Shown: positions 13,701 to 41,313 of the stretch, piece by piece
Numbering within the stretch: the first letter of the stretch is position 1
Layout of the letters: the number at the start of each line of letters is the position of its first letter
From: Lunularia cruciata
Taxonomy: Eukaryota; Streptophyta; Marchantiopsida; Lunulariales; Lunulariaceae
NCBI GenBank assembly: GCA_948567375.1
Contig: OX419762.1
Coordinates: 56,748,841 to 56,812,840 of the forward strand
Direction: 5' to 3'
Length of the DNA stretch: 64,000 bases
Program-made: the position numbers and the translations under genes
The notes under the pieces: generated by a model
The model's database searches: none
Told to the model about the DNA's origin: nothing
The model's input: only the letters and a program-made list of their open reading frames with translations

Positions 13701-15016
13701 TAATTCAAAATACTCTCCAAAGGACGAGTAGAAGAGACTGGAAACAATACATCCAGTAGCAGCAGTAGCAACAAGAGAAGCAGAGAGTAAGAGATCGGAA
13801 AAAGAATTAAAAAGGAGGAAAAATTTCTCTTCAAGAGAAATATCTTTCTCTTCAAGATATATTAGATTTCTACATATTTTCTTCTATAAATAATTTTTAA
13901 CATGAAACAAGAATCAAATTACCATCTAGTCGACTAAAAGAATGAAATTTGTATATAAATGGAAAAAATTCGGACCCATATCCATCTAAATTGCGTTAAA
14001 AAATTGTGTCCACTTTATGCCATTACTTTAAACAAGTTTTAGTATGCGTATGCCCCATTAGTGGCCTCTACTAGGTTAGGCATCGGACCAGAAATGATTC
14101 CACTATGAACGGTGGCTCGAGAACATCTGACTGCATAGTTGACCTCTATAATCTTGCTTTTTCTGCAGGCGAAACGTGTCACTCTGTATGCACTCCAAAA
14201 CGAAATTAGAGTTTACTGAACCTTTGCTCTCAACTGCGAGAACAAAGCAAATAGAAAATGGAAAGAAAGTAACCTTGAGTCAAACATACAACATACAAGA
14301 TGCTTCTGTCTGTTGCGATCAGATATATACACCATCAATATTCATATCTCTTCCAGGCCACAAGCGAGTTTCAAACAAATCAAAAGCTTTCAAACGGAAA
14401 CTGAAGAATGCATCCTCGTCCTTCCTGTAAAGACATAATAATAAGCTATGACAAAAGGTTAAGCACATTGCCACAGATCTGCATGTGAATGACTATGTTA
14501 TTGTAACATGAAATACGTTCTGGAGCGCAATACCACTCAACCATGCAGTGAACTATAGTTAAACCTTGGGTGCGACGAAAAAAGCAACCGGGTTAGGTAC
14601 TGTACTGTAAAAAGGAACGAAGCCCACAGATGCTGGGGTTGGGTGACTCGGCATGAGCAGAACTTCCGGTTCCGTTACACTACGTCCATTTAAGTGGATA
14701 CCTGACACAATTGTGTGGGGACACATGTTCAGGCACGGACGGAGGTCCGGTCTCCGCGAATGCACAGTGGCATGTAAATACGAAGCCCGTGAAGGTTGCC
14801 CTGTAGCTCTACAGTACCCGAGAGCTTTCAGAGCAGCGCAGAGCACGAGACGGTGATGGTGTTTTGCCAGGATTGCGAGAAGGATTGTACTATATAGTGA
14901 CAGACTGGGTCGATAGAAAGTAATTTCATTTGTGGAATTGAGAACAGTCGTTAGGGATCGTTGGATTTTGGTGAGAAGGAAGGCCAATTTGGAGAAATTT
15001 TACTCGGAGTGGGCGA

Positions 15017-18000
15017 ATGGCCGGGGATCCGATTGGTAGGGAGTATGAGCTTGATCATCAGCACGGGAAAGCTCGTGTTCGGGTCGCGCGAGTATGGCAT
15101 GAGGGGAGTACTCACGTGATGGTGGAGTGGTCTGTATCTGTCTCGCTGAGGTCAAAGTGTTTGAACGCTTTCACGGAAGGGGATAATTCTGCTATTGTCG
15201 CAACGGACACTATCAAGAACACGGTTTGTTCTCTTATCTCATGGCACTTATCTCACCTGAGAAGTTGCATGATATGGCACCGTCGTACTTTACGTACTTA
15301 GCCTGTCAGTTCGTAACGATCTGACTATTGTGTTGGGGAATTCTTGCAGGTCTATGTACTGGCGAAGAGGTGTAGCAAGACTCTATCACTGGAAGACTTT
15401 GGGTGCCTACTGGGAAAGCACTACGTATCAATGTATCCCGAGGTATATCAACAGTTCACGACCTAAATTCTCGTCCCCTGTTTTTGACCGTCCAGGCTAT
15501 GCATCGATTGTATATCTGTTAGGAATTGGCGTGAGTTTCTGCAAGCAGAAGGTTTCCGAAGATGTATATAATTTCTGCCGAAGATTTACTGGAATGAAAC
15601 CACTCGTTTCGGAAACGACTAGCTCATGACAGACGTTACGAGGGAGTGCCGAATTTATGTCGGAATCTTCTTGTGCAGAAATTTGAAGGTAGCGTATCTT
15701 AGTGCCAAGTTGCCGGAGAAACTGTTCAAAGTTTGCTGATGTCGAGGCTCTGTTGTAATGCAGGTGACAGCCGCCCAGATTTCCCTCACACAGAAGCCAT
15801 GGGAGCGAGTGGTTATTGATCAGATACCACATGAGCACGGTACGCCCGGTCGAGTTCTCCTTTCACAGGACAAAATCAACCTGGTCGAACGGTGTCCTGT
15901 AGTTGTCTTTTCCTGATCAGTATGACTGAAGGTCTGCGCGTTGAGGCCACATTAGAACGACATGAATCTACCTTTACGAAATGAACTGCATCCTTCTGCA
16001 ACGTGGTGCGATCCAAACCATGGTCTTGCGACCCGGATACCATATAATTTTCTGCCCACAGATCTGAGTCAGCTTGTCCTGCATGTAGGGATAGTCTAAC
16101 TGGTGAAGCCTGCCAGCTTGGACCAGCATTGATTTACCATCGTCGTTTTACAATAAGAGATAACCCGTCGTCTCTTGTCTGATCTACGACACGGTTGGAT
16201 GATAGACAGCCTGACCTGCGCGTGTCGGCAGCAGATTGGCATTTATCATATTTGCACTAACATATGAACTTCGACCAGCATTCATGTTGCCTGCAAATGT
16301 GCATTCATGATTGTAAGCGTTTGCTGGAACAGGATACAAATTGGGCTCCGAAAACCGCACGGCCGAGATTTCTGTCACCAAAGACGGAAAGGTTCAAGTC
16401 GTGGCTGGCATTTCAGAATTAAGTCTTCTCAAGACAACGAAGGTAAACCATGAATACAAGTTTAGGGTATAATTCAAGGTCAAACTTGACTAGAAATTAT
16501 CATGGGTTTACTTGCAGCGCAAGCATCGATACAAAAACTTTGACTTAATGGCAATTTATCATTTATACTACATTGTAAAGCAAGGAACAGGGTTGACTTA
16601 TTTAAACTTTGACTTACTCCAGTCCGGATTCGAAGGCTTTATACGAGATAAGTACACGCTCCTCCCGGAAGTGAGAGAGCGGATGATGGCATCATCAGTG
16701 CGTTCTACCTGGAGGTAATTGTTGAAATCTGGCCTTCACTTTATCATTGTTTAATCAGCACTGTAGTGCAAACGTTCATGTCAAACTTTTGGTGGTGCTA
16801 TACAGCGGTATTATTGACCAGATATTTTGTAGGATGGGTTGTACGAGCATGTTAAAGTTCGAAGCAGTTGGCTCTTAGGATACAGGCTGTGTGGTGACAT
16901 TGTTTGTCGCCAGAGAGCCTCAAATAAGTCGCCATGTAAACACACTCGTTTCTCTCACCGAATGAAACTCACAAACCTACAAAAATGGAGAAAACATTAG
17001 CCACGCCATGGCACCTTACAGATTTAGGGGATTTTGAACTATTTGAAAGTCTGCCTTGTACATTTGGATAAACATAAAATGAAGTTGGAAGCGGATAAAG
17101 ATCCTTACCAAGCTGAACTGAAGAATACAGTTTGACGCAAAATGATCTGATAGCCGTAGTCCACAACTCGTTTGCAACTTACGTGTAAGGAACTACTGCG
17201 CGTCAGATGATATGCTGGAATGTGCTATTAAATGTTTGTTGTATGCTTAATAACTCGTTAAGTGATTGTTGCGTCATTGAATTGGAATCAATTTTGTCAT
17301 AAAATATACATGCACCACAGAGTTCTGTTTCGTTTCATGGCGGTACACTAAAGGGGAACAGACTGGAAAAAGTAGTTGAATGAAAGGTGTTACAGCTACT
17401 TCAAGTTTCTGTTACCCCGCTCATACAGGTACTCAACCAAGCCTTCAAACTACAATGAAACTCATGCAACTGTGAAGAATATTTTGCTCAATACTTTCTA
17501 TGGACCACCTCGAGGTGGAGTGTACAGCCCGTCCGTGCAGGCTACCTTATATCTTATGGCCAAAGAAGTGCTATTGAGGTTGGTTCCCAAAGTTCCCAGT
17601 GTCAATTAGGTTTTCTGAGTCTGCTAGGATCTGAGATTTGGCGTGTATCTGCCATTCGTTGACTCATCCCGCCAAGTTTGTTTTCTTCTACGTCAGTAGT
17701 GATAAGTTACTCTGTGCTATATTCTGGATTCAGAGGATCTCAAGATTCTTGCTCTGCACTTATAGCACAAGTAGTTTTGAAGGTCTTTCCAACATTTGTT
17801 CAGTCGAGATATACACGAGCAAGCTATACTAATCCTCGAAGTTGTGTTTCTCCAGAATCCCAGAGATTGAGTCTGTGTACTTGAATATGCCGAACATTCA
17901 CTTTATGCCCGTAAACTTGACTTCTTTAGGAGTTGAGGTAAGCTTCTGCCGTTATAGTTGCGACTACATCTTTCCTCATAGCTCTCCCATATTGTGTGAC

Positions 18001-18445
18001 GGTATGATCAAACCATAGCAAATTGCTTTCCATGGCTCCTCCATATGTGTATGGATTGGATTCACAATCAAGTGGACCTCTGTTGACGAACAACATGACC
18101 CTCAATGTGTACCTAGGAGCGTTTCGATGTAAATCGGACCCAACTTGTCGGATATTGCTACTCCCTTCTCCTGATAGTATTGATGAACGTGCTTAGATAT
18201 CTTTCTATCGAGCTGAGGTTGAAAGGCGCTTACAGCCTAGATTCAGCTGTCAGCTCATTTCCTGCTACTGGAGGGTGAATTGATCACAACCCCACTTAAG
18301 ACCGTTGACAAGTCTACGACTTCACGAACTTACCCAAGGCGTGCTTTTGCAGTTTAAGGATGACGTATATTTACCAACGGACGAGCCTCATGGGTCAATC
18401 GAGGCAACCTTAACAAGAAGAGGGTTATCTTCATCCAAGTTATGA
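15017..18445 (+). CDS. UOX: Urate oxidase (uricase), complete, eight exons, peroxisomal
   Basis: Oxidises urate to 5-hydroxyisourate in purine degradation. Exons by frame, phase and GT-AG sites: 15017-15223, 15350-15442, 15764-15839, 16333-16442, 16623-16714, 17429-17578, 17856-17937, 18353-18445, giving about 300 residues, the normal length. Family marks: HGKARVRVARVW near the N-terminus; VATDTIKNT with the active-site threonine; LLGKHYVSMYPE; SGFEGFIRDKYTLLPE; FYGPPRGGVYSPSVQ; MPNIHFMPVNL; and PTDEPHGSIEATL near the C-terminus. It ends in SSSKL, a canonical PTS1 signal, so the product should be peroxisomal. The start ATG (GCGAATGG) precedes MAGDPIGREYEL and keeps the frame of exon 1. No stop or frame break occurs in any exon. 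Introns are about 125 to 990 nt. Confidence 0.95.
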
Positions 18446-19489
18446 TAGAAGTCAGATGTCTGACCCGCCTGTTGTTTGAGAGACGCATGATGGAAGTCTT
18501 CTACGAAGACCAGTTATGGGAGTCTTCCTGACTCACGCCATTTTTTGTCCTGATCACGTGAAGTATGTAGAAAACGACTCATGTACAAATAACTCTGAAA
18601 CCATTATGTCCAGCAGAAGTTTAGCGATACATCATTGTCTACATCTCTTGCTCTCTGGGAATAATATGTACATCTCAGGTTCATGTATAGTGCAATCTAG
18701 ATTGAGTATATATATGTAGTGTGAGCTAGCTCACTTGTCTATAAATTGCCACAAATTTACCACATTTTATGTTTAAATGAAAAGTTTGTACAAATCAATA
18801 CAAAAGGCGTTCCCTGGCTTTCAATGTCTGATCTGGAGGTTTGGAACTGAAAGTTTTTCTGAAAGTCGTAGCTGCATGTCAGGAGAGAGCTTTATGATCA
18901 ATCAGTGCAGTTCGGACCACGCTGACTGACTAGTCGCCCCTGTCAATCTGCGTTTCCTTCTCGCTTTTATAGTGTCATAAGCGATTAGCGGGCTATCATA
19001 GCACACGAAGAGTATGAACAACCGATTGGACGTGTAGTCCCGAGAGAATTGTAGATCTTGTAGATAATTTATTTCAAAGATCTGGGACCGAGATGTGATA
19101 CAGAAAAGAACCTCACCAAAAACTGAGCACAGTTCGTGAACTTGGAAAATCATTTCTCTGAAGTGGACTTCTTATTGGTTGCCGTTTCCACCGGACGTGA
19201 GCCTAGCTCATATCAGGTTTCCAGCCATGGCCGATACAACTGCCATGTATACTACCGTGAGACCGAGACCTTTTACTCCGGTACCAAACAGCAGTGGTAT
19301 TAAGTAGTTCGCAGAGCCTTTCTTTGCTGCATTTACACAGCATGTGAAGGAATTTGTTATTCTGCTTAGCACTAACTTTTGAACCTTAATCTACTGGCAG
19401 GAGGTTCACATGCACTTGGTATCTTATGCGGCATCAATGAACAAAGCCAACTATCAATCTGGCCTTAAGGATCTGCGTCAACATACACC
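18446..19489. other. Interval between UOX and the minus-strand glycoprotein gene
   Basis: The first part is presumably the UOX 3' UTR. A minus-strand open frame at 18902-19153 might be a further 3' exon of the next gene, since it contains a basic segment KARRKRRL, but no splice phase could be confirmed. Nothing else is recognised. Confidence 0.4.
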
Positions 19490-21004
19490 TATAACTTGAT
19501 ATACGAAGATCATGATGTTGATGGGTTCACCTTTCACGGCTTGAAATGGGATTGGTGAGTTGAGGATCATTGTGGTGTTAACCCCAACTTTGGCAAGATA
19601 ATTGCCAACCTTGGTTGGAGATACATTCGCTGTATAAAAACCGAAATCACCTCTGGTATCTACTGTTGCCGGTTGCGACAGCGTGACTTTACTTCCATCA
19701 TCTGGATTCCAAGTAATCTGGCCACTCTCACCACACGATAGAAAATCGGTTTGTAAACCGGTGCAGAATCCGTGAATTTGAGGCGTGTGTCACTGGATCC
19801 ATCACCTTCCTCTCCAACTCTAGGTCCAATTTTTTTCTTTTTAGTGAATTGTGTTTGATTGAGTGCATCACGTTCCTCTCTTCACTCTAGTTCCATGGTT
19901 TCCTCTTTTGAATTTTGAACGGAGACACTCAGGTTCCATGAGCATCAAACGTTTCAAATTTAAGTTTTGTACAACTTTGAAATTGATAGGGTGCCAGCAC
20001 TGTGTGCATGGGGCATTGTTAGAAAGAGTACCGTCACGGTGAAGGGTACGGGAGTCACGCCAAGGCGACCAGTGTTCGCACCAACCGTGTTGTTCCAGTC
20101 GTCCATCAAGTTGATCATGAGCATATTGTCGTAGCCTAAATAAACTTTTGCCGTCCCATTCTCGAAAGTTCCAATGCACTTCGGTATCATTATGTCGCCT
20201 GCGAAATCGGAGGAATAGACTAAACATATTCAGTATTTCCCGGGATATCTTAGCAAACAACAGCTACCAGTTTGGAAGCGTTTAGAAGCTTTATTGGAGA
20301 TTCACCGTCAGTCAATGAGCCAAGGTCTGTTGAATGAGGAAAATATGTTGTCAAAGTTATGATCTCCGAAACGTATAGGATATTAGCAAAGTGGAAGGGG
20401 AGAGTGAGGCTGCCAGAAGGATGAAAAAAATAATTGGAGAGTAAAAATTGTTCTAGGACGTACCTGCAATTAACGTAAGGTTGTGTAACTTTGTGCCGAT
20501 TGTTGTATTTGTAGTTGTATTGATCATGTCCAAAACAAGGGAGAGACCGGTGTGTCCTGCAAGAGAGTTTGTGGCCAGACATGAAGCTATCCATTTGCCT
20601 GAGTCGGAGCTATCCATAATGGAGCATGTCAGGCCCCCGATAATACTGTTATTCGTTGCCACTCCGTACAGCTGATAGCAAATTACGTCCAGTTAGTTAG
20701 TTCCTGAAGCCTAAGTACATATACACATGACGAGAGAAATGCAACAAGTAAAGTTTGACATAGCTCTGTGTTTCTTATAAAACTTTCTATTGCGTGAAGT
20801 TCTTACATTCATGGCTGAATCGCCGTCATATAAAACGCATCCTGTACACGCGGCAGTGCAAGATTTGTTCGCGGCGACGCATGCATCAGCTTCGCATTCC
20901 TTTGACCATGCGGTGATGGTGAGATTGGTTTGCTCTCCTTCTTTTAGAGTAACTACACTGGAGTTATCGATGCCGGTGCAAAGTGTACTAATCGTTGGTG
21001 CTGC
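19490..21004 (-). CDS. Secreted or surface glycoprotein, multi-exon, unnamed; possible filamin-like module
   Basis: Visible exons on the minus strand: 20807-21004 (66 codons, phase 0), 20464-20671 (phase 0 to 1) and about 19960-20198 (entry phase 1), with matching phases and good splice sites. A further exon-like stretch lies at about 19490-19760. The first three exons hold at least nine Asn-X-Ser/Thr sequons in some 215 residues and a cysteine-rich patch (KECEADACVAANKSCTAACTGC), which indicates a secretory-pathway protein. The 3'-most stretch contains GFYTANVSPTKVGNYLAKVG and SPIPF, resembling the end of filamin-type Ig repeats. The motif LCTGIDN / FCTGLQT starts both the first and last blocks, suggesting a repeated module. 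The 5' exon is unresolved; a hydrophobic MTLFVLLYTLDVV starts at 21241. Function unknown; a GEX2-like gamete protein is only a guess from the filamin-like pattern. Confidence 0.5.
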
Positions 21005-21259
21005 CTGGAGACCGGCACAAAAGTAGAGGAGAAGAAACAGACCTGATTTCCATACAAAATGGTCAAGTTATGAAACCGAGTAGGTTTCTGCGAAGCAAGT
21101 GGGTTTGGTGCAGCCTAAAGGTGATGACCGAATACTGAATGTTATGAAGTTTGTTTGGAGAATGGAAGAGATGAAAGAAGTACCAAAAATATATCGGTTT
21201 CTGACGACATCCAAAGTGTAGAGTAAGACGAAGAGTGTCATCGTCTCATCTCCTCTCAA

Positions 21260-22933
21260 TGTCGCTTAGCAGCTTGATGATTTCTACATGAGGATTCTAA
21301 TGGAAGTGATGTTTGGACGTTCATCAATAGTCACACTTCAGCGCCATCTTTACCATGCGAGAGTGGTAGAGTGCATTGTAAACCCCGAACTTGATCGAAA
21401 CAGCTGCAATTATGCAAGTACGCACTGTAAGCACTTGGATTCGAGCGGTGATTGATTATACAGATCTATATACTGATCCAGGACTCTGAGATCCGCCTGG
21501 TAATTCGTCCTACTGTAGTTGTAGGTTTCAAAACACAGTAGTCGCGTTTGTAGCTTCAGAGATTCCCTACCGTGCGGATGTGCCTTCAATTAGTTGTCAT
21601 GGTGAACATTTCGACAGTCCAATTCTAAGTTTACTGAGCTCAGATTTGTAGACTAATAAGATTCAAAGACGGCTCCGATACACTTGTCTGCCTTCAGGGA
21701 TTTCAGCGTCATCAGCGATTCAATGCTTGGTTTTACATGACATATCTTTGTACATATGCTTGCATTGAGACCGAGAATGCGTGACAGGACACCTTGAACA
21801 GTGATTCAATCCGAATATTTGGGCAGATCTAGCATTGATAATGGTGTGACTATGACTGAGGATTAAACTACATGGTTTTATCCTTCTTCACTGGTATTTC
21901 CCTCTATGATCCCGAAGATCAAGCCTCCATCAAATGCTTGGCAGTCTCACTGGCGACTATTCAGCTGTGAAGTATGCGTAGAGAAAGCGAGGCGAGATTT
22001 GTTTCGGACCTGAAATTTCGCGCAGATATGAAAGAAAGCTCGTCAAAAATTCGTTATTCCAGACAAGGAAACCGCCATGGCAATCTGCTAATTGAGTTTG
22101 AAGATGGAATGTTGGAAGTCCAAACTTTGAAGCTGAGAAAGGTGGTCGCGAATTCGAGGTCGCAAACTTGGGACCAAATGAACGGCTGGTCAAAATTATG
22201 TGGAAATTGAGATCGCAATAGAGGTTGCAACCTGATTCGGCGGTTCACGAGGAACCCGGGTTGTAATCCATCCTCCTCCCGGGGCCCGCCTAGCTAAACT
22301 GTCAGTCAGTTTAGTTCTCCTTCAGCAGTACTACTACATGACTACAAAGATCCTTGCTCCCCACGGTTAGCAGGGCATGACACCAAATGTACAAGACCTC
22401 TGTTATTGATGTCTTCCGGTTTGGTTTGTCTTGGGAACAAAGACAACAGGGACGAGAAGTTGGAACGAAAGGTTGGGTTAAGTCACACTGAATTTGCATA
22501 TGTAGAATGGCAAAAGTGTGAACGGAGGCTGATGGAATTGAATCCACAACAGGTTCAATTTCTCCTCCCGCATCCCCGACACGTGCATATTGCATGCAAC
22601 TGCTTGAAGAGTCAGCTGAGTTGAAGCTGTGGATGTGCTGAAAGCCTGAAAGGCAATCACAACAGGGGTTCTGGAACGACGGTTAAGAAGTGGCCGAGGC
22701 CAGATCTGTGTTCCCTTCGCTGTAATCGTAAGGACTTCCTGTACCGTCCAATTAGATGTTGTACAATTACATTGTTTGCGATGAACGAAATCCATCGGCG
22801 CTTCATGTGACCTCTGAGAGGTTTGCTTCCTTACATCGCTATCCAGAAAGGTTGACGACAGGAACTTCTGTATGCTTGGAGTGCTCCGCTGACGTTCATA
22901 TCCTCGTGTTCAGAACTCCACAGTGACGCTTCG
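21260..22933. other. Intergenic region between two divergent glycoprotein genes
   Basis: This is the likely shared promoter region of the minus-strand gene (19.5-21.2 kb) and the plus-strand gene starting at 22934. Open frames on both strands (for example 22478-22795 minus and 22406-22624 plus) overlap each other and none can be joined to a neighbouring exon by phase. An unrecognised exon here cannot be excluded. Confidence 0.35.
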
Positions 22934-25900
22934 ATGCCACTGTCAGCAGTCTCACCTTATCCCATGGCGCCAAGGGTGTCGGAAGATGTGAAGTTCTACT
23001 CGTTAGCACGGCTCAAATTGTTGATTTTGTGGAGCATGGCAGCATTGATTCTTTGCCTAATCTCGGCCCGCTACTCCTCAATAGGTACTTCTTAACTTAA
23101 CTCCAGCAGAAGAGCAAATCTCTGCTTGGGGCATGCCAGGAAAGGTCGTTTGCCGTTGTTTTGAACAATGCTGGAGGAGTTTAGTTGCCTTTCTGCCTCC
23201 TTCCTAGACAGAGTCTGACCTCAAGGCTCTCGGTAATTTGACAGTAGATATTCAAGACAATGAAGGCTACAGACATATCATACACTTATTTTGCACCATG
23301 GACGAAGCGATCACTGTCGTGGTGGAGGATCATTCAAACGACTTGATCACGGCCCTACATCAGAGGAAATGCCAGCATATTCTGCAGATGACTAGCCGCC
23401 CCGAACTGATCAAATCTTGCAGGAAAGGTGGCTGACTATCTATACTAGTTTGAATTGATGATCGTGAGCGACAGTGCAATTTTGCATCTGCATGTTACTG
23501 TTCTCCATAACATGATTCAAGCTTCAGACAACTCGATCTGCTCTGGGAAAAGGATGGTGAATGTTCTCGGAAGATCAGCTCAGCATAATAAGGTGTTGAT
23601 GCTTTCCAATGGCGTTGCAAATCAGTATGTCAAGAGATTCTATGTGCCGTGTTGCAGGGTCTCTGGTGTGCACTGCCTGTGTTTGGAAGAACGAGACAAC
23701 TACGGAAAGTCAGGAGATGCGGGAAGGATCAGTAAACCCCATATACCGTAAGAAGAGTCACAGAGAAGTGTTCACTTTTAAAGGTGGTGGTGCTATTCAT
23801 GTGCTGTGGAAAGCTAATCTGGACCACGCTGTAGGAGTTAGAAAGCACGAAAGTGATTCTGAAGATGGTAAGGCGCTTTGCCTTCGAATTGACAACGTGC
23901 TGAATGCCGGAACGAATCTACCCGTCGTTGCACATGACCACAAAGGCAAGAATATCACTTTCACATAAGTCGTGCGTTGGCTTGCTGAGGAGTTCAAAGA
24001 AGTAAGCCTTCTGTAGAGTTACCGCCAAGTTCTTACGATCTTCGAGGACGAGTAAGTGAAGCCTACGCCGCAAAATTATACAGTAAATAAACCTGAGAAC
24101 TGGACCTGAACTGCAGACGTATGGCCTGTAACAAGCGGCGAGGCTGCTAGGGTGAAAGTTGACAAGCTGCAAACTGGCAATACCGCACCAAGGATCATTG
24201 GACGTAGTCAGGTTTACTAGCATACCTTCCTTAGACTTCTTCTGCTCGACAAATAGCACGGACATTATAACATGCGAGGTGCAATTATCTCTTCAACTTT
24301 CGCCTATGAAATCGTCCAAACCTTATCCTCCTTGGTACGAGCAACTTGAACACACTTATCTATAACGGTCATCACAGGTACCGGTGACAAAGCATCGCTC
24401 GTTATAGCTCAAGGTCAATACCAGAAGGCTTTTCTTGAATGAAATAGATTGAAGTGACTACGAACTATGTCTCAGCCAGGCTCATGCGTAGATTCCAATT
24501 TCTTCATCAAGACAGACTTTTATCTTCCAGTATGTGCATGTTATGAGGCCCTAAAGTGCAGTATGCCAGATTGCAGGCCAAAGGTTCGGGTGCCTTATCC
24601 AGCTCGGAGAGCCGGGCCTAAAAGATATCTCTCTGAAGGAATCTGCTGTACTTCTGACGTTTCTTATGGCCTCGTTGGCTACAGGCTCCTCGACGAGGTC
24701 TAGGTCAAATCCAGGGATCACTGCAGTTGCTGTTCTCTTCTAGAAGCGTTGTCGGACTCAGGAGAGATTCTCTCAGTAGAAGCGTAGAAACAGGCATTCA
24801 GGGATTAATTGGTGCGGAATTCGCACTAACTCCCTTCACCGGTAATGGCGAAATTCCACCTCGTAAAACAAGGTATCAGTACTTCATGACATCTAGCGAG
24901 TTAGACGCTTGATGCACTTCAAACATCCTAAGTTAGAACCATAGCTAGTTCTGATATTTGAGTTTTGATGCAGGATCCTGAGTCGTCAGTTGATGCAATA
25001 TCCTCCTCCACCGGATGATGATGGGAGGGATCCTGATTACATTGTGCCGCCTCCACCTCCACCTGACCCACCTCCTCCTCCGGATTTAGGTTCACCTGAT
25101 TGGGGCATTAACGGGAATGTACTCGCCGGCGGTGTAAATCAGTCTGCTGATGATTCTAATCTCACTTACGATCGGGCTCTTCAACCTGAGATTATTGCCC
25201 CTGGTGTTATTGACATCTTAAATGTCTCCGTCTTCCTTTCTGGAGTGCGACTGCCTGGATTTAGTATTAATGCTCCTGCATCAACGCCTGCTGTTGCTAA
25301 TTTTTCAGGTATCATTTGTCTTAGTTGAGCTATAGCACTTCAGCTAGAGGTGGGTTCAACTTTTTAAGACTTTTACCCCCTTCCCCGGATCTGATTCATT
25401 TTAAGCCATGGCTCTCTCTGGATCCACGTGGAAGTTAAGAAGCACTAGTTTCGCACTGTGCTTGGCATTCTGCTGTTCTTGTGGTTTCACCTCACTGCCA
25501 GTTATTTGGATCCTTTCCCGCTTGGTTTTGTGACTACAGGTTATGAAGTTGTGCTCCAAGTAGACAGTGGATCACTCATGGTGACAATTCCTGAAAGCTT
25601 GCTCGGTAGAGCAAGGCACCAGTCGGGAGTGGGGAACTACTGGATTAGCCTAGAAGGGAATCCCGTGGACGGCTTGGAACAAGTACCCGGGGCAGGTATA
25701 CAATTTCAAGGGACACTATCAGAGGTCAACGCTGCTTTAGCTACTCTTAATTTTGGCAAGGGTCTTGGCAACGTAAGTCAATTTTGTCCCTCAATTGCTT
25801 TTCAGAACCTTGTGCAGTTTGGAATCGGGTTTAGGTGTCGAGCTTCGAAAACCTGGGATGATCAAAATAGTGACAATAGTTAATCCAGGAATACCCAAAG

Positions 25901-27623
25901 ATGGTACCACTACAATTCTGATTATTCACGGGTGAAGGGTGCCAAGTAAGATCTTGAGCAGGGGTTGTTTGCACGACGAGAAGAATTGACGCAATTGATA
26001 GTCCTCTGCAGGGAAAGAAGAGCGTGAGTATCATATCGATGCTGGCTTACCCGACTGAATCTGATAATGAGCCAATAACCACCTCAAAGGCCACCAGAGA
26101 GATCACCTTGAACGTAGCGGCAGCAGGCATTTGGTTCACAATTTTCCGTGAGAATTTATCCAAGCTCCTGTTTTGTTCTAATCTCTGTTCTGGTCAGTCA
26201 GCAGAAATTTAGTTGCTCTGATCTTTTTAATCGGGGGAATTTTCAGAGTACACAAAAGAATTTTACAGCAGCTCCCTCGGGATTCTAAGCTTGGGATTGA
26301 CTGCGTTGATCATCCTCTTCTGCGTCCTCGGCGGGTGTGTCTGCTATCAAAACAAAAAGGAACGAAAATTTTGCAAGCAGCAAGTCGTCACAAAAGTCGA
26401 GGATGCACATTACGATGAGACTAGAGTGAGTTGCCCAAAAGCGTAGCACAAACATATCACAGTCTTGAAAATTCAACTAGAGGAGCGCTAATGCTAGAAT
26501 CAATTTCCATTTCGTAATTTTGCATTTCGTAATTTGCATTTCCTTTGAAAAGTTTCAAGGTAGAGCAGAGCCTTTTCCCATGAATCGCTTGTGGGGCAGT
26601 TAACCAGCATGAGAAAAACTAGGTATATGTGATGGGTTCCAGTCCCCATCTATGAAATGTATCCAAAACCGCTTTGCTGCGATTTGATTGGGAGAACGTT
26701 ATGTTTCCTGCCTACGGTTGCGAGAGGCCATATATAGTCGAACGTTCATAGTTATTCGCTTTCCTAACTCCTTATTGAAATACTCACAAGCCCCCACATA
26801 TCCTCCTGGGTATGAGGTTGTTATCTGGTCTCTTCTTACGTAGCACACAATGACTACCGAAAGATCGACCACTGTTAAGGAATAACGCAGGCAACCAAAC
26901 ACTGATTAAATCACGCTTTGAAAATACTTGAAATTCGGGCTCAGGATATCAAGTTTAGAGTTCAGCAGACAAAATATCATTGACCCTGCCAAATTTCGGC
27001 AATGTCGAGATTTGGATTCTACTTTGTACGGGGTTCAACTTTCAAGACTAATGGCGAGTGATTTATAAGAGCATCTTATGTTACAGGTTTTTAATCCTTT
27101 CTGGATACCAAGTACCGCTAGGATAACGAGAGACGAGACATTTGTCATCACCCCGAACCCAAAGTATCTTCAACAGCTTCAGTCAGAACACCTTACAAGG
27201 TGATCAATCTTGTATCTTGGATAGGAGAGAATAGTAATCATGTACTTACTTTCAGTCTAAGTTAAATGCTCCAACCGCACTAGTTGGACGGAAGATGAGA
27301 TTTCAGTCTTCTGTTCGTACAGATTACAAGGGATCGGGGTAGAAAGAGGATTGGACAAATTTCTCGCTGCGGCTGCTGCTGCCTCTGCGAATCCAGATTA
27401 CACTACAAGCGATGGTGGAGAAGATTCATCAACAGCAGCAACAGGGTCGACACAAAGCACTGGTACAGGTGGGTCGAGTTTGGGGTCTCCTGAGTCACCA
27501 GGATCTACCTCGAGCGGTACAAGTGATATCTATAGCTCAACTTCAAAGTCCAGTGGATATTCCATAGAAGACGAAGTTGATCCATCACTTGATGCATCTG
27601 ATAGTGATTCTGACTCACGATGA
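22934..27623 (+). CDS. Type I-like membrane glycoprotein with Pro-rich stretch and Ser-rich tail, unnamed
   Basis: Exons supported by splice sites and phase: 22934-23084 (MPLSAVSPYPMAPRV, then hydrophobic LKLLILWSMAALILCLIS, a signal peptide or anchor), 23212-23427, one from 23658, about 24730-24879, 24974-25309, 25540-25772, 26247-26425, 27087-27199 and 27323-27623. Exon 24974 carries PPPPPPDPPPPP and sequons NQS, NLT, NVS, NFS. Exon 25540 reads like one strand-rich repeat (IQFQGTLSEVNAALATLNF), a pattern I associate with cadherin-like/tandem-95 modules. Exon 26247 holds the transmembrane helix (LGLTALIILFCVLGGCVCY) followed by basic NKKERK. The cytoplasmic tail ends in an Ala run, Gly/Ser repeats and DASDSDSDSR. 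Joins between 23.9-24.7 kb and 25.8-26.25 kb are unresolved. I do not recognise the family. Confidence 0.55.
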
Positions 27624-28430
27624 TGCGAATCCCAGCCTGGAAATGATAAATGAAGTGAGATAATCAGCCACGAGAACGTGCCTTAAACTACTTACAGGAA
27701 ACCCACTCCAGGGAGACAAGAAGGACAGTCCATACCGTCATCCACAGTTTTCACCACAACCTCCGCTACCACGATCTGGTGTCAGGAAAAGGGAAAGAGA
27801 TGGAGAGAACTTGCAGCACATGCGCAAAAGAACCTGGTGCTGGACCCTCATTACCTGGGACATCTTGAACTTGGCATATGTCAATCTGTGGAGATAGTTC
27901 TACGCCCACATTCCCAGTGTGTAAGTTAATTGCTTCAAGCACTAGAAGAGCAACCAACGAGTCGTTCTGGAAAAACAAGCTGTGAAATGTGTATTTCGAG
28001 CCAATCAGAGAATAGCATCTTGAACCCAAAAATCCTCAAGCATGGTAGGAATTGCTCACGTTGCATTATAGCAACACTCTTGGTAACCCCCGCATGAAAC
28101 ACGAATTGTATTCGTTCACAAATATTCTTCTCGTCTCAGCTCAAGATCAAGCGCGAACAAAACTAGTCTCCTAGCCTACCGACTTCCCTTTCCTGACAAT
28201 CATTCCACCTTTGCCCTTTGTTATCCCCTTTAGCGTTTTACAGTCCTTACCTGAACAACGATATACAAGCAGCTATCAAACAAGATATATGAAGGTCTAC
28301 GAAACGAACTCTGCACAGCAGATGCGAGAGTATCTTTTTCTCTACAATGCTGTTTTTTAAACTTCGTTTACAACTGCATTCCATTTCTGAGTAGCTGCTC
28401 AATAGCCTTCACGAAGCTCACCGTGAATTA
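27624..28430. other. Interval between the membrane glycoprotein gene and minus-strand exons
   Basis: Probable 3' UTRs of convergent genes. A minus-strand open frame at 27766-28029 (contains LHTGNVGVELSPQIDICQVQDVP) could be a 3' exon of the gene described next, but no junction was confirmed. Confidence 0.35.
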
Positions 28431-28580
28431 GCTATGGTTTAAAGCTTGTGACCCGATTACTTGTCATCGTGAAAATTCGAATCACTTCGAAGAAAGAGAC
28501 AGCTGATGTACATGTGCGCACAAGCCGCTTATGGTAGCAGAACACTACCACCTTTGGGGCAAAAGGTCGGCTCAGGTACT

Positions 28581-29711
28581 TCAGTACTTCAGTTGTAACT
28601 CGTCCGAAAGGTTTCTCTCCTCTACAGCTTGACACAGATTCTCACATGGTGTATCTATCCATTTCTTCACGCTACCATTGACAAAGAACAAGAAAGCTTG
28701 AGGACCATAGACAACCCAGATCTCTTTCACATTCTCTTGGACAAAGTTTAGGCTTGGTTTAGAACTGTTCAATTCAAATCTGAGAAAACGTTGGGTACCG
28801 TTTATGAGAGAAGAAAGATGTGCGTGAAGAGAAAGGGCCCTTCATTAGATCTTGACCACCTACAGCTACTCTAGGTTTCAAACCGGAATATTTAGCTTAA
28901 AACATTCAGGTTAAAACAGTTGATCATTTAGCAGTTCAATCTTGAACACTGAGTGCCTTCTTCTAGAGTTTGAAGTATCCTCATGTTTCCCGTTATCAGG
29001 AATCAGAACATACTCATGAAATTCGAGTTCACATCCATGTCGAGTAAGCATACCTGGACATTTGGAGATAACTCTCTGAATTCCCATCCGACAAGATGGC
29101 TAGCGAGGATCCTTTTTAGCTCCTGGCTCTCGGCTTTCCTACCCATAAGGTATCAAACCCGTTCCTCCCCGGCTCCCGCAAATTTGGGTGGTGATCAGAT
29201 AATTGAGTTTATACGCCGGCTGCAGCTCGGGTGATTCAGGCATACGTGTAATTATGGGCATAACTACGTCCTCTATGATAGTCTACTCCCAAACATGATC
29301 AAGAATTATGAGTAAGCTAGTGCATAATTATAGTTTACGTCTAAGTCTATGTGGTAGATCGACCCAACCTGCAAAGTGCGTTGATGCTCTTCTTCAGATT
29401 CTTGCCCCAAATGCTCTTTTGGTAACTCCTGTTGAGGGGAATTCGCATCAACCATCTTGATGCCCAGTTTCCCTCCCAATGCAACCAGCACGGATCTTGA
29501 ATCTGCATCTTCCCCACGAGAGAAGAAATGAACACCGCCCTCGGAATTCGATTCTCTTTTGTATATCTCGGCCAAGTGCTTCACCATCGTAGACTGTCTC
29601 TGGCCGAATTCACAACGTAAGATGGGGCCATAGTATACTTCAAGATCTAGAGCAATTGGAACTTTGTTCATGGTATTCCGTAGTGCCCCATATCTCTCAT
29701 ATCGGAAAAGC
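28581..29711 (-). CDS. Unidentified minus-strand gene, exon-like pieces
   Basis: Three open stretches on the minus strand look like exons. The first is 29369-29711, preceded by an acceptor-like CCCCTTAG and including MNKVPIALDLEVYYGPILR. The second is about 29055-29140 (LASHLVGWEFRELSPNVQ, followed by GTATGC). The third is 28581-28785 (NVKEIWVVYGPQAFLFFVNG, stop at 28581). The phases I read do not join cleanly, so an exon is missing or the gene is decayed. The 5' side lies about 150 bp from a copia LTR, so the upstream part may have been separated by that insertion or may be lost. I do not recognise the protein. Confidence 0.35.
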
Positions 29712-30185: not shown

Positions 30186-30260
30186 ATAGTTGGTCTTGAA
30201 GAGTGACTTGAGATCTGAGGGTGCAGTGAAGAGGGTCAAGAAGCAGTCCATAGCAAAGCA

Positions 30261-30994
<734 letters not shown>

Positions 30995-31194
30995 NNNNNN
31001 NNNNNNNNNNNNNNNNNNNNNNNNNNNNNNNNNNNNNNNNNNNNNNNNNNNNNNNNNNNNNNNNNNNNNNNNNNNNNNNNNNNNNNNNNNNNNNNNNNNN
31101 NNNNNNNNNNNNNNNNNNNNNNNNNNNNNNNNNNNNNNNNNNNNNNNNNNNNNNNNNNNNNNNNNNNNNNNNNNNNNNNNNNNNNNNNNNNNNN
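30995..31194. other. Assembly gap, 200 N
   Basis: Exactly 200 N, a placeholder length. It replaces the end of gag and the protease region of the copia element. Long open frames drawn across it on either strand are artefacts. Confidence 1.
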
Positions 31195-31960
31195 GGAAGA
31201 ATTTGATATCAATAGGCACTTTGGACTCAAATGGTTGGAGGTGGGGAGCAGAAAATGGAACACTCAAGGTATCAAAAGAAGCATTGGTTGTAATGAAGAG
31301 CAAGAAGATATGAAATTTTTATGAGCTTGTTGGAGAGACCATTACTGGAGGAGTGGCAAGTACTATTTCTAAAATGAAGATCCCAAAGATCTTACTCAGT
31401 TATGGTACCCTACGTTTGGGTCATATGAGTGAAAGAGGTCTAAGTGAATTGTCCAAGCAACAACTTCTTAAGGGCCTTAAAAGTTGTAAGTTAAGATTCT
31501 GTGAGCATTGTGTAATATGAAAGCAACAAAGGGTAAGCTTTTCCACAAGATTTCATTGCACAAAGGGAATTTTAGACAGTGCATTTTGATGTTTGGGGCT
31601 CTACACCTGTAGCTTCAAAATCTAGAGCATTATATTTTGTATCTTTGGTTGATGATTACTCTAGAAGAGTATGGATCTACACCATGAAGCAAAAATGAGA
31701 GGTCTTCTCTATCTTTGAACAATGGAAGGTGATGATGCAGAAACAAACTGGAAGGAAAGTGAAGTGTTTGAGATTTGATAATGGTAGAGAATAAAAATCT
31801 GGAGAGTTTGATAGAGTGAAGGGAAGGGAGAAGGGATAATTCAACACTTTACCATTCTGGTTACTATACTGTGGCAGAGCAGATAAATTATACACTCTTG
31901 CAGAAAGCAAGAAGTATGTTAAGCAATGCTAAATTGGAAAAGAGTTTTTAGGCAGAAGCT
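31195..31960 (+). pseudogene. Copia GAG-pre-integrase and integrase, broken
   Basis: After the gap the frame reads NLISIGTLDSNGWRW, then past a stop LYELVGETITGG, LRLGHMSERGLSELSKQ (the His of the HHCC zinc site), LRFCEHCV (the CxxC part), and YFVSLVDDYSRRVWIY (the first catalytic Asp of the DDE integrase core), then RFDNG with the second Asp. Stops after KSKKI, CEHCV and MKQK and loss of frame after 31800 show inactivation. Confidence 0.85.
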
Positions 31961-32469
31961 ATAAATACAGCTTGTCATTTGACATTTCTCCCTCTACTAC
32001 TATTGAGTGTAAGACACCGATGGAAAAATGACAGGTTAGCATGTTTGTTACTCTTCACTTAGAGTTTTTGGATGCATAGCTTATATTCATATTCAACAAG
32101 AAAAAACAACAAAGTTAGATCACAAATCTAGAAAATATATATTCTTGGGATATGAGAAGGATACAAAGGGATATAGATTATGGGATCCGGAAAGGTGTTG
32201 TCTTGTTGTGAGTAGGGATGTAATTTTTTGATGAGACTAGTACAATGGACACTATTACTGTAGTAGAAGAAAAGAAAAGAAAATATAGTCAAATTTTGTT
32301 AAAATAGATATTGATCTTGAAAATGAAGACATTTCACCTCTTGTAGATCTACCACATGAACCATAGAAGAGCAAAGTCCAAAAGTGATTCATGAACGGAG
32401 GTATCCAAATAGGGATAGAAGGCCTCCAAGAAGATTTGATGATTAATTTGTAGCTAATGCTCTTCTTAC

Positions 32470-33371
32470 AGAGAATGGTGAGCCTTCTTCATATGAAGAG
32501 GCAATGCAAGATCAAGAGTGTCAAAAGTGTGATTGTGCAATGGAAGAGGAGATGAAGTCTTTGGCCAAAAACCAAACATAGAGACTTGAAAAATTGCCTA
32601 TGGGAAAGAAGGCAATTGGTTGTAGATGGATATTCTGGAGGAAGGAAGGACTTCCAAAATCTGGTGGAGATCAATACAAAGCAAGGCTTGTAGCAAAGGG
32701 TTATAGCTAAAAATAAGGTATTGAATTCAATGAGAATTTTTCACCAAGGGTAAAAATCTCTTCAATTCATGCACTATTGGCAAAAGTTGCATTGCATAAC
32801 TTGGAGTTTGGAGCAACTAGATGTTAAAATTGATTTTTTACATGGAGAATTGGAGGAGGAGATTTACATGCATCAACCTAAAGGTTTTGTGATACCAAGG
32901 AACCATAACCTGGTTTACAGGTTACAAAAGTCTTTATATGGACTAAAGCTAAGTCCAAGACTTTGGTACATGAAATTTGATGCTTTCATATTGAAGCATG
33001 GATATAACAAAAGTGAATCAGATTGTTGTGTGTACCTCAAGAAGCTACATAGACCTAGAGTATTTGATTTAATCATCTTGGTACTATATGTAGATGATAT
33101 GTTGATTGCTGCGGAGGATATGGTTGAGGTGGAGAAATTGAAAGCACAACTTGGTAAGGAGTTTGATATGAAGGACTTGGGTTCTTCAAAGAGGGTGCTT
33201 GGGATTGAAATCCACCGAGACAAGAGCAAGGGAAAGTTATGGATATCTCAAAGAAGAAATTTGGAAAAATTACTTGCTCGATTTGGCATGGAGAATGCAA
33301 AACCAATGAGCATTCCAATGGCAAGTCATTTCAAGATATCATTAGAGAAATGTCCATCAAATGAAGAGTAG
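32470..33371 (+). pseudogene. Copia reverse transcriptase (RVT_2), frameshifted
   Basis: The frame begins ENGEPSSYEEAMQDQE and shows MGKKAIGCRWIF and YKARLVAKGYS, interrupted by several stops. A one-base insertion near 32808 (GGAGTTTGGAG) shifts the frame. It then continues open as LEQLDVKIDFLHGELEEEIYM, LQKSLYGLKLSPRLWY and LVLYVDDMLIAAED, with the YVDD catalytic motif intact, up to a stop at 33369. This is the best preserved part of the element. Confidence 0.92.
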
Positions 33372-35615: not shown

Positions 35616-36016
35616 AGTCCCGTGTTGTGTTATGAGATGAAGGGTTTTCATTTAGATTTCTTGTGATTGGATCCCCTCCATTCTCTACTTCTTGTTTGTG
35701 CACCACGTTTGTGTGAGGTGCCTTGACTTTTGAGCGTTGGTGCTCTAGTGTGTTCTCGGTGGTGAGGCTGGAGTGATGACCAATCAGATTACCTTTGTTT
35801 CTCTCTGGTGAGGCAGGAAGTGATGACCTGCAGACCGTGAGAGTGCGTGTTATGATGGCAGGTCACAGGTTGCCCTTTCCCCTAGTGTAGTTATCTTGGT
35901 TAGACTTACATTAGTGGGTGGTGCTTGGTGGTGTTGGCACTTGGTGGGGTACTTGCGGTTGCAACTTGTGGTTGCAGTTGGTGGTTTGGGTTTGCTGTTG
36001 TGGTTACTTTGTCACG

Positions 36017-38470
36017 ATGGAGTTTTTTGGAGATTCCAAAGGAGTTAGCCCTGTAGTACGCATTGGGTTTACTCGGGGTGGTGTTCAGTATCAGCCTGTA
36101 TCTCAGGTCCCAATGAGGGAGGAGATTGACTCTAAGTTGGAGTTCGACATAGTAGTTGATTCAGTTGAGAGTGCACTTGGTGTGTCCACACCGTTGTTGT
36201 GGGACATGGACAAGATTTATGGGGCCTCCAAAGGCCCTAGGCATTACTCTGGTATAGTGGGTACCATTGAGTTGGATGACTTCATCCAAGAGTTCGATAG
36301 TTGGTGTGATCTGCAGCAGATGCGGAACCCAACTTTGTTCACACCCTTCATGGCATGGAAGAGGTTGTTTCAACATCTGGAGGGTCCGCCGATGGATGAC
36401 TACCATGAGTTCAGGAGAGCTCATTTGGAGGAGATCGAGTTATGGAGACAGTAGTGGTCTCCACACTATGTCTCCATCACTTCAGGCTCGATGGCCAGGA
36501 GTAGATCGGCTGTACCTACGAGTTCTAGCTCGAGTAGTGTTGGTGGAGCTAGTGGAGGTGCACTAGCTGGAGATAGTGCTACTACGAGTGGAGGTACCGC
36601 TACAGGAGGTAGTGTGGTACCGGGGTTTAACCCCATGGTGGAGTTCTTCCTATGTTTGAGGTAGAACTACCAGGGAGTGCGGACTGACAAGCTGAGGAGC
36701 TTGCATGAGTTCCAGCGGAAGGCTGGAGAGAGCCTACGCGAGGCATACACTCGCATGAGGCGGCTGATTAGTTTCACTCAGGGAGTTACTGAGGCCCAGG
36801 CAGTCCAATTTTGGTATGGGATACTGGACAGGGAGTTGCGACGTAGAGTTCGTGATGCTACGTTGTTGCAGGCTACTTTGCCCACTTTGGCAGTAGACTT
36901 TGGTTTGGCTGAGCGTATTGAGCTCAATATGGTGGAGGAGAGAGTAGTGACATCTGGATTTGGTAGGAAGACCTCATCCACGGCTATGACTTCTTCTAGA
37001 GTGCAGCAAAGTACACCATGCCTAGTTGGTTTTCAAGGACAGGGTGGATAGCCCAGATCCTATAGAGCGAGTGGAGGGCCTAGTGGAGTTAGACCCTTAC
37101 CCTCATTTTTGGGTCAACAGCAACCAGTGAGTGGTGGTGTTGCTTGTTGGACTTGTGGTGGACCTCACCATCGGAGAGAGTGTACTCAAGGCAGCGGACC
37201 TGATACCTTTGGTGCATCACAGCCATCACAAAGTCAGTGTGAGCACTGCCACAGATTTGGTCACACTAGTGACCGGTGTTTTGACCTACACCCGGAGTTA
37301 CGGAGTGGTAGGGCTGCTATGGCAGGTAGTAGAGGAGCTCCAGTTCATGGAGGACGAGGTGGTAGAGGTGGTGGTAGAGGATCCACACCTAGTAGGGGTG
37401 CAGTACCTGCCCTTACTTCTGACATAGCTATGGCTACTCGGATTGAGCAGTTGGAGCAGAGATTAGCTAGTATGGCTATTGCTCAGAGGAGATCAAATTC
37501 GGGTGCTGAGGCTTCCACCTCATATGCTGGTGATAGAGATGCTTTGGACTTCATGTGCGGAGCAGCCCAGGTGGATGCATCTGCAACAGTGACTAGGAGT
37601 GCAGTATGTGCTCCAGAGCCTAGAGGAGCATCAGTGGAGTTGGATCCATAGAGAGGAGAGGTTGGGAGACAGGTCAGACTTCCCCAGTCTTTCACGCTAT
37701 CAGAGGCATTGTAGACAACATCCATGGTTCCGAGACATCCCAGTGCAGGTCTGGTAGGTGGTGATGGAGTACCTGATGGACTACCTGCTAGTCAGCCACC
37801 TACTACTACACAGACTGAGTCTAGCATGATGTTGGGAGCGGCTCAGCTGATTATGCAACATCCTTTGTTTTCAGCCAGTGACATGTTTACATTGGGAGTT
37901 GACCCAGCCCCAGTGTTCCGGTTGGCTGCCACGTTGTGTGAGAGTAGGGATGGTGCAGTTTTTACTACTAGAGCAGAGGTGGTTGGTAGTAAAGCTGACT
38001 TGGTTGAGGAGCATGGGATCCATTCAGCGACCAGTGGTTTATGGCAGGCAGTAGCGGCTAGACTGGAGGAGTTGCCAGCTAGACCGGCCTTTGAGAGAGC
38101 GCGGTTTACACCTGGTGTTGTTCTATTGGATAACCAGAGGGGGATTTTTTGTTTGGTGGGACCTTCAGGGAAGGTCTATACACCACAAAGAGTCTTGTTA
38201 GACTCTGGTGCGCAGCCCCTTATGTTGGGGAAGGCTGCAGTTGTCGGTCTGGAGTTACGGAAGACGGATGTGGAGAGGTGTCCATTTCAGATCCAGACAT
38301 CTCTTGGTGGCGGTTCGACACAGTACATCACACGTGGAGAGCTTGTTGTCCAGGTTCAGCCTAGTCATTCGACTGATAGCTCGGTGGTGAGAGCTCAGGC
38401 TATTGCGACGATAGCTGAGTCATATGATGTGCTATCAAGTTCTCTAGTTGTAAATTTGTTGTGTACGTAG
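36017..38470 (+). pseudogene. Gypsy gag-protease frame with TAG stops
   Basis: One reading frame runs from the ATG at 36017 to 38470 without a frameshift. It is cut by stops at about 36452, 36662, 37049, 37649 and 37712, all TAG. In order: a Gag N-terminal part (FTPFMAWKRLFQHLEGPPMDDY), a Gag core (SLREAYTRMRRLISFTQGVT), two zinc knuckles at 37150-37290 (CWTCGGPHHRREC and CEHCHRFGHTSDRC, both CX2CX4HX4C), a Gly/Arg-rich linker (GGRGGRGGGRG), and a retropepsin region near 38160-38410 with LLDSGAQPLMLG holding the catalytic Asp (DSGA in place of DTGA). It ends at AESYDVL, where RT would normally follow. The downstream polyprotein is missing. Confidence 0.85.
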
Positions 38471-38960: not shown

Positions 38961-39280
38961 AGTGTCTTGATAAGGCTCAGGGGTCATCTCTGAATAAGGA
39001 TTCATTTTATATCAGAAACAACTGATTCCATCTTACTAGAGAATCAAAATGATAAGGATTGAATGGAAGTCATGTGAGCCCATAATCTTTTGAATTCGAG
39101 CAGATGTGAAAATATGTGCATCCATGTAAAGACTTAGCAGACGGATCTCGGACATTCAATAGTGTTTCCTTAGTGATGAATGAATACAATCCACAGGGAC
39201 AAGATCCAATATAAATGAACAATGCATGCAAGCTTGGGATCCAATGGATGTAATCAGAAACGAGAAATTGATGTAATAAG

Positions 39281-39320
39281 GAACGAGTAGCTGACTGAAA
39301 GAACGAGTAACTAACTGAAA
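39281..39320. repeat. 20-bp tandem duplication in a Bet v 1-like intron remnant
   Basis: GAACGAGTAGCTGACTGAAA at 39281 is followed directly by GAACGAGTAACTAACTGAAA at 39301. Confidence 0.85.
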
Positions 39321-39431
39321 GAACCAGGAAATCACTTGTAACGGCCGCGATCAAGAAGAACTGGCAAGTCACAAGATCAACGAGAATTGGGGAATATCTA
39401 CTGAGCAAGAAAGGACCAGATGAAGCCTTAC

Positions 39432-39606
39432 TTGGTCCGAACTTGATCAAGAGAACTGAGCCTGGCCCTCGTTCACCTTCGAGAACCTCAACACTGGACA
39501 CGGCCTCAGGCATAAGCTTGGGGAAAAGTGTATTCTGATCCTTCATTGCTAACCACATCGCTGATACAGAAACTCCCAACTGAACTTCATGCTGGAAGTT
39601 AGGCAT
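39432..39606 (-). pseudogene. Bet v 1/PR-10-like gene copy A, exon 1 only
   Basis: The minus-strand exon starts at MPNFQHEVQLGVSVSAMWLAM and runs to LLIKFGP, with a donor GTAAGG in phase 1, the same as in copies B and C. In the family this N-terminal half forms the first beta strand, the helix V and the glycine-rich loop region (EGERGPGS here). No second exon is found downstream: the sequence down to 39000 is intron-like and then becomes antisense copia integrase. The copy has therefore lost its C-terminal half, probably through the rearrangement that brought the transposon block. Exon 1 has no stop, so loss may be fairly recent. Confidence 0.8.
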
Positions 39607-41313
39607 TTTCGATTGGGAAGAATTCGAGAGAGCAGCAGTGAAACTTGTTGTATTCGAACAGTAGACAGGCTAATTCGTAAGGAAGTTTTTGTGTGCTTTG
39701 CTGGGAGTGCACAGGATCCTTGTATGAGTAATAGATCGCTGCTTTAATACTGGAGCAGGGATCAAAAGCCGGCTACAGTTACCATAAGTACTAATAAGTC
39801 TCTCATGTCTGGTTAACGAGGAGACGAAATGAGAAGCTCCAGCTTCACGTGCGATGTTTGACCGAATGGTCTCCGAACCTTTTCATCCTTCCAACTCTTG
39901 TTTCTTGCCCCAGACCCTTGTGTACTGATTGGCCCGCTATTCCAGGAAGTCATAAACGATAAGATTCTCTAGCGTCTAGCAAAATCGAGTCAGAGTCTTC
40001 GGCAGTCAACTGAAATCAGAAGAAACTCCCCAATTCTGAGCAGTCCTCGAGAGTCTTCGAGTTCTGGGGGTTGTCACTTGAAGGAATTTCATGACCGAAT
40101 AATTTGACTGGATCCACAAACTGCTTGCCACAGTAATTTGAGCTGCAACTTGGAGTACGTGAGTTTTCACCGACTTCACAGGAATCTCGGCAGTTTCGCA
40201 TTCGAGTGTTTACGATGAGTCACGAGTGCACTGGAATACCGAGCCAGATAATAATCTAATAGGAATGGGATTGGAGGATTACTTTCAGCTGTATAGTCGC
40301 TTGGTCAATTTTCTTCTTGAGTTGCCAGTGAAACTATAATCTAGCTAGTAAATTCGATTGAGTCCTACTCCGAGTGGAACAACTCCACATTTCGGAAAGA
40401 CACTACGGAAGAGTACATCTCAACAGAACACAACGGAACTCGTCAACGTGAAGATAAAGAAGAGTTTGATCGATTGTTACATGCACCTAAGCATAGAATC
40501 TCAACCCAGCAACAGAAACATATCGATCGGACAAAGTATCTGTAGAAACTAGAAGATGGCCGTGGCTTCAAGCATGGGCCCCACAGGCGAGCAAGTTGAT
40601 TGACGGGAAACATCTAATCTAAAGTCTAACAACGGACCCAGAGTTTATGTTTTACTGCAGAATACTCTAATACTACACATCCAGGTAGTATGTGGTCACA
40701 CAGACTTACAACCTCATCTGAATGTTTTGTGATCCGAAATTCATCTTCTTTTACGAACTACCCATCAAACCATGGGAATTGGTTTTACCCGAAGCAGCCG
40801 ACCAAGGATCACCCATTACTCGGGGTGTTAGAATCAGAAATTACATCCGGATACGAACTCAAGAGTACATAGACGAGTTTCTGTTCGGAGTTCGCATTGT
40901 GATAGATTTTAGTTACTTTCGCCACCTGCATAGGATTACCACTTCGGCTGACAGCGTCGATACTTAGATCTTGATTCATTGGTTCAACATAATAGGAGCC
41001 AAGCACAGATGACAGTTCTGAAGCTGCACCTTTAGAACACTCATTGACTTGCATAATTGCATTTTATTTACAGATTGCTCGTATACATGCACATGGTACC
41101 GACCATCTACATCATTTTCCCCGATTGTCCGAGGAAATGCACACAGAATAAGCAGAAGAATGGATCAAGCAATTTAGAAATAGTAACCGGGGCCTACGGT
41201 CACTTATCGGCACGAATTCGATCATCTTGAGGACCCAGCTTAAATAACACCAAAATCTTGTAAGCCTGTTATATTAGGGTCGTGGATACCAAGGAGATTC
41301 GGAAAGAACCGAT
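39607..41313. other. Interval between Bet v 1-like copies A and B
   Basis: Probable promoter of copy A and 3' flank of copy B. A minus-strand open frame at 40809-41054 (contains SSVLGSYYVEPMNQDLSIDAVSR) is the only one with some protein-like composition, but I cannot assign it or link it to exons. Confidence 0.35.

Follow-up and report, generated by a model that had tools for sequence, protein, structure and literature searches.

Our analysis of the window, a stretch of 64,000 nucleotides from Lunularia cruciata, suggests that the left of two head-to-head genes encodes a compact surface adhesion protein of the GEX2/FUS1 superfamily, and that the right one encodes an independent single-pass membrane protein. 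We assign this reading a probability of about 0.6. Judged by its sequence, the left protein is a compact relative rather than a standard GEX2.

A GEX2-type domain in the left gene

The spliced left protein matches the Pfam profile PF23616, the GEX2 N-terminal Ig-like domain (Ig_GEX2_N), with 35.1 bits (E 1.6e-8; cutoff 27). When a tentative first exon is included, the score is 35.0 bits (E 1.7e-8), and in both versions the match covers positions 1-104 of the 105 in the profile; the domain taken alone, with a read-through end, reaches 37.2 bits against the cutoff of 27. Without splicing the match stays below this cutoff, at 22.4 bits for the single-exon open reading frame and 16.5 bits for the read-through frame, and it passes only when the exons 20198-20032 and 19717-19531 are joined, the domain spanning their splice junction. 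Moving the acceptor three codons upstream lowers the score to 29.8 bits, and the junction 20032/19717 is thus favoured by the domain itself. This part of the protein had been taken for a filamin-like end in the preliminary description. It is an Ig_GEX2_N domain instead: Filamin (PF00630) scores 14.0 bits on the isolated domain, under its cutoff of 26.9, and is not listed for the whole left protein. Searches with the left protein gave no match in NCBIfam and a best E of 0.46 among PDB sequences, and none of 17 stretches of viral contigs found with the left domain was confirmed.

The gene is located on the minus strand between about 21356 and 19208 and was spliced by hand. Five exons, 21042-20807, 20671-20464, 20198-20032, 19717-19531 and 19326-19208, join to a single frame of 304 amino acids without an internal stop. 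The first of these, exon 2 of the gene, encodes the end of a leader and the first half of a first module with a cysteine-rich stretch, and its acceptor and donor each rank in the top 2.8%; exon 3, with the second half of this module, has a donor in the top 0.2% and an acceptor in the top 6.8%. Exons 4 and 5 carry the first and second half of the Ig_GEX2_N domain, with a donor only in the top 11.6% and an acceptor only in the top 27.3%, respectively, and exon 6 encodes a hydrophobic C-terminal tail (hydropathy 1.83, residues 281-312) and the stop. The splice sites vary in quality, some being mediocre, and none of the left exons passes a filter for exon-like segments that combines splice sites with a long open frame. 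The tentative first coding exon (21335-21356, minus strand) would, together with exon 2, supply the leader MVKMALKCLFLLLYFCAGLQA and extend the protein to 312 amino acids from six coding exons. For the acceptor of exon 2 there are nine candidates, and this 22-base exon, one of them, has a weak donor (score -1.4); a home-made exon-chain program also used the donor at 21335, in a longer exon, 21403-21335. The program recovered the left exons identically or as close variants and favoured splicing onward at 19256 over an exon 6 that reads to its stop. Since its codon table was partly trained on these exons and its chains crossed neighbouring genes, its runs serve as a guide and not as independent support. 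Codon usage was compared with a table trained on 1474 codons from other genes. Only two of 16 segments from both genes fell below a fraction of 0.05, namely the short first exon (7 codons) and exon 6, both of the left gene, while left exons 2 and 3 reached 0.40 and 0.57; the test thus lends no support to most exons of either gene.

About 135 amino acids precede the Ig_GEX2_N domain, and no Pfam family was recognised in them. By hydropathy, the protein has a leader (1.87; the first exon is weak) and a hydrophobic tail that follows the domain and runs to the C-terminus. The roughly 250 amino acids in between leave room for about two Ig-like domains, one of which is recognised by Pfam. The intron phases of the gene are 1-0-1-0-1, so that each of the two stretches consists of two exons with phase-1 borders. 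This phasing fits two Ig-like modules; as the modules lack sequence similarity (score 27, where shuffles average 30.8 and 1535 of 2000 score as high), the Ig-like fold of the first is one that we infer. For the same reason, with only the intron phases in agreement, a recent tandem duplication of the modules was rejected. The first module contains five cysteines within 20 residues (CEADACVAANKSCTAACTGC; 20837-20896, minus strand), possibly a disulphide-bonded loop. Both proteins had been described as rich in Asn-X-Ser/Thr sequons, which is borne out by the left one, with 11 sequons in 312 amino acids against 4.1 in shuffled sequences (11 reached in 3 of 5000 shuffles). The right protein is not clearly enriched: it has 6 in 590 amino acids, a number that 307 of 5000 shuffles also attained (mean 3.0), and 4 in the 300 amino acids of its core part, attained by 451 of 5000.

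Only two modules where GEX2 has seven, a weak start exon, some mediocre splice sites and a codon usage of exons 2, 3 and 5 that is indistinct from background would also be expected if the left gene had arisen as an incomplete copy of a full-length GEX2 at another place in the genome and were turning into a pseudogene. We regard this as unlikely, as the spliced frame of 304 codons has no internal stop, sequons, leader and tail are retained, and no second copy of the left gene lies within the window.

The right gene

The right gene is located on the plus strand, with its best exons at 23658-26446. On both strands of 14001-29500, six exon-like segments were found against 0.94 in shuffles (at least six in 2 of 200), at thresholds that had been chosen after the right exons had been seen; four of the six fall at 23658-26192 on the plus strand, in the right gene. 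Together with the open left frame, this agrees with the head-to-head, multi-exon genes proposed for this stretch. The exon 23658-23867 has strong splice sites and is backed by the exon-like-segment test, and the exons 24480-24583, which encodes cysteines, and 24685-24872 have moderate support. A proline-rich stretch and the start of a perhaps beta-rich region are encoded by 24974-25308 and the core of this region by 25540-25772, both with good splice sites and backed by the same test, and its end by 26012-26147. The donor at 26147 ranks only in the top 31.4%, with an alternative at 26192, and the segment 25962-26192 overlaps this exon in the same frame and has good splice sites. A further candidate exon, 25871-25930, was rejected as it brings stops into the frame. 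The exon 26247-26446, read to its in-frame stop, encodes a transmembrane helix and a basic tail; a donor also lies at 26425 and, if used, would make the gene longer. The 3' end is either the stop at 26446 or lies further on, two runs of the exon-chain program joining the gene to 27087-27199 and 27323-27468, the latter part of an open reading frame at 27261-27623 that has no Pfam match; one direct join to this frame leads into another frame with an early stop. At the 5' end, two doubtful exons were placed at 22934-23084 (hand-spliced, encoding a hydrophobic leader, donor in the top 6%) and 23212-23427 (frame-compatible), the codon test being not significant for both.

The transmembrane helix is strong, with a Kyte-Doolittle value of 2.56, and corresponds to the clear helix that had been noted in one of the two products. 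The doubtful leader is hydrophobic as well, and so is one stretch inside the ectodomain. Probably exposed at the cell surface, the right product is best read as an independent protein that crosses the membrane once, carries a proline-rich stretch and has an ectodomain of no recognised family. None of its spliced versions matched a Pfam family above cutoff, so that of the statement that neither product matches a family, which fails for the left protein with its Ig_GEX2_N domain, the part on the right protein stands. Within the perhaps beta-rich region, the phrase GTLSEVNAALATLNF resembles, as we take it, bacterial tandem-95-type repeats, and a cadherin-like/tandem-95-like repeat had been proposed on the right; Pfam returned no match for such a repeat, cadherin-like and Big_9 profiles being absent at E up to 10 in the spliced versions. 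The three read-through frames of 22501-28200 gave no Pfam match at E up to 1. Over the helix, DUF2627 (12.4 against 22.4 bits, E 0.23) and DUF6163 (11.9 against 27 bits, E 0.22) stayed under their cutoffs, and sub-cutoff matches to OppC_N and ETRAMP on the right single-exon open reading frame were set aside. With the right domain, NCBIfam gave no match, the best E was 0.28 in PHROGs and 0.18 among PDB sequences, and none of 82 stretches found in prokaryote genomes was confirmed.

The head-to-head layout observed here is exactly what would result if the N-terminal part of a gene on the plus strand were inverted, and both genes might accordingly be the N- and C-terminal parts of one GEX2-like gene that was split by inversion or misassembly. 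The left gene holds the N-type domain and the right one an ectodomain and a helix, and in the excerpts on seed-plant GEX2 that protein ends in a C-terminal helix; moreover, the exon at 19531 ends in phase 1, as would be needed for a join to the exon at 23658, which starts in phase 1. However, the left gene has a hydrophobic tail and a stop of its own, and the right gene has no match to Filamin, Big_9 or Ig_GEX2_N. Strong inverted repeats are missing around the left gene, where the best pair (18178-18203 and 21304-21329) spans 26 nt at 77% and may be due to chance. We therefore consider a split gene improbable and treat the two genes as independent. That they are duplicates of each other was rejected, as their proteins are unrelated (best blastp E 2.2), and no second copy of either protein was found within the window.

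The gap between the genes

The two genes are separated by a gap of 1577 bp (21357-22933), the right border of which depends on the doubtful exon at 22934. It contains the sequence RRCSGTT, the DUO1 consensus as given in an excerpt of PMC6290024 and the only motif tried in the gap, at 22070, 22181, 22239 and 22678. The window as a whole holds 19 such sites, fewer than the 29.6 expected (at least 19 in 97 of 100 shuffles). For the four in the gap, dinucleotide shuffles of the gap gave a mean of 0.87, and at least four in 19 of 2000. Sliding windows of 1577 bp contained at least four sites in 19 of 1249 cases, by the listed positions all including the gap cluster. At least four hits in the gap were also obtained with 96 of 1259 permuted motifs; none of these 96 had a share of at least 4/19, which is harder to reach for permuted motifs because they are commoner in the window (mean 43.8). 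The cluster is suggestive only. The right gene might possibly be under upstream control that is common with the left gene. According to the excerpt of PMC6290024, the GEX2 orthologue of Marchantia is not under the control of MpDUO1.

The adjacency of the genes and the clustered DUO1-type sites in their common gap would also suit two products that work as receptor and ligand or as co-receptors, such as a GEX2-type adhesin with a proline-rich partner in a role like that of Chlamydomonas MAR1. In the literature excerpts, MAR1 is a single-pass protein that has a proline-rich ectodomain region and binds FUS1, and the right protein resembles it in crossing the membrane once and in having an ectodomain that is proline-rich in part. 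In the same excerpts, however, MAR1 is lineage-specific, its orthologues being confined to a few close algal relatives, and has 1018 amino acids, a long cytoplasmic tail and PPSPX motifs, whereas the right protein, inspected by eye, has proline runs without PPSP and a tail of about 32 amino acids if the gene ends at 26446. In addition, two proteins that meet in a single adhesion event would be expected to sit on opposite gametes, an arrangement not favoured by a shared promoter. We consider a pair of direct partners very unlikely.

Genomic neighbourhood

A uricase gene of several exons (15017-17937, plus strand, possibly to about 18.3 kb; PF01014 187.3 bits when spliced by the exon chain) converges on the left gene, and a PPR gene was chained at 59-2245 (PPR_2 203.3 bits on 1028-2242). 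Downstream of the right gene, a 134-codon open reading frame at 29309-29710 on the minus strand is the start of a possible multi-exon gene, whose chained protein has no Pfam match. It is followed by a Copia-type element at 30219-33368 (plus strand; RVT_2 151.7 bits in 32754-33368) with a long (GA)n run and 200 unknown bases, the upstream open reading frame of which we take to be gag-like. Open reading frames at 35915-38467 (plus strand) encode zinc-knuckle-like motifs such as CWTCGGPHHRREC and presumably belong to a second retroelement; 37715-38467, the sole piece searched, has no Pfam match. Several similar exons at 39073-46565 on the minus strand, e.g. FQHEV.LGVSAS.LWLAMKDQNTLFPKL, apparently form a tandem cluster, which we assume to consist of PR10-like genes; one piece matches Polyketide_cyc2 at 19.6 bits, below the cutoff of 27.4. 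An Armadillo-like protein is encoded at 49668-50615 (minus strand; ARM_PUB 20.7 bits, below the cutoff of 33).

Discussion

Our comparison of the pair with GEX2, FUS1 and MAR1 is drawn from excerpts of PMC12069490, PMC6290024, PMC8777248, PMC9777546, PMC9187738, PMC4160995 and PMC10246275. There, GEX2 and FUS1 are described as surface proteins by which gametes adhere, each having seven Ig-like domains and a single transmembrane segment (PMC12069490, PMC8777248); GEX2 attaches plant sperm to female gametes, and the adhesion of gex2 mutant sperm is reduced (PMC4160995). The earlier suggestion of surface adhesion between gametes accordingly fits the left gene, as far as its Ig_GEX2_N domain and the described role of GEX2 and FUS1 go. 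The left protein shares with GEX2 this domain, above cutoff, and, judged by hydropathy, would also share a leader and a C-terminal tail. In the passages at hand, cotton GEX2 genes have 14-16 exons, which for seven domains amounts to about two exons per Ig-like domain, and two exons per module in the left gene would agree with this. The left protein differs from GEX2 in having about two modules instead of seven, six coding exons and no cytoplasmic tail. Seed-plant GEX2 is described there with filamin domains and a Big-9 bacterial-Ig domain in addition to its C-terminal helix, whereas in the left protein Filamin remains under cutoff and Big_9 has no match. FUS1 of Chlamydomonas, compared by description only, belongs to one family with GEX2, with an Ig-like ectodomain and one helix (PMC8777248, PMC12069490); in the wording of PMC9187738, Chlamydomonas has no GEX2 orthologue, yet FUS1 has a filamin-like domain. 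With 823 amino acids and seven Ig-like domains (PMC8777248), FUS1 is longer than the left protein. Among the matches listed in the literature on GEX2, gametes, Ig-like/filamin, homologs and Marchantia/Physcomitrella, none had a short GEX2 as its title subject.

Based on the GEX2 domain type, the leader, the many glycosylation sites and the anchoring tail, the left protein most likely binds at the cell surface. A signal peptide would direct the product there, and its ectodomain would consist of two Ig-like modules, each from two exons and probably N-glycosylated. The hydrophobic C-terminal tail would act as a membrane anchor, either as a GPI signal or as a tail-less transmembrane helix. By family, the likeliest job of such a protein would be membrane adhesion between gametes or between cells of the sexual organs, and from the family alone it might be speculated that the gene is expressed in gametes.

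The most far-reaching reading, which we consider highly improbable as a whole, would combine a two-Ig GEX2-type adhesin with a proline-rich single-pass protein of a new family, both driven by one divergent DUO1-type germline promoter and acting jointly in gamete recognition. The literature passages on GEX2 at hand name no female partner for it, and the excerpt of PMC9187738 states that the missing partner molecules need study. If this reading were true, the pair would make up an adhesion module of land-plant gametes that had so far been known from its GEX2 side only. A short natural relative would indicate a minimal adhesion unit, and, if it is co-regulated with the left gene, the right gene would become a candidate for the same pathway that can be tested directly.
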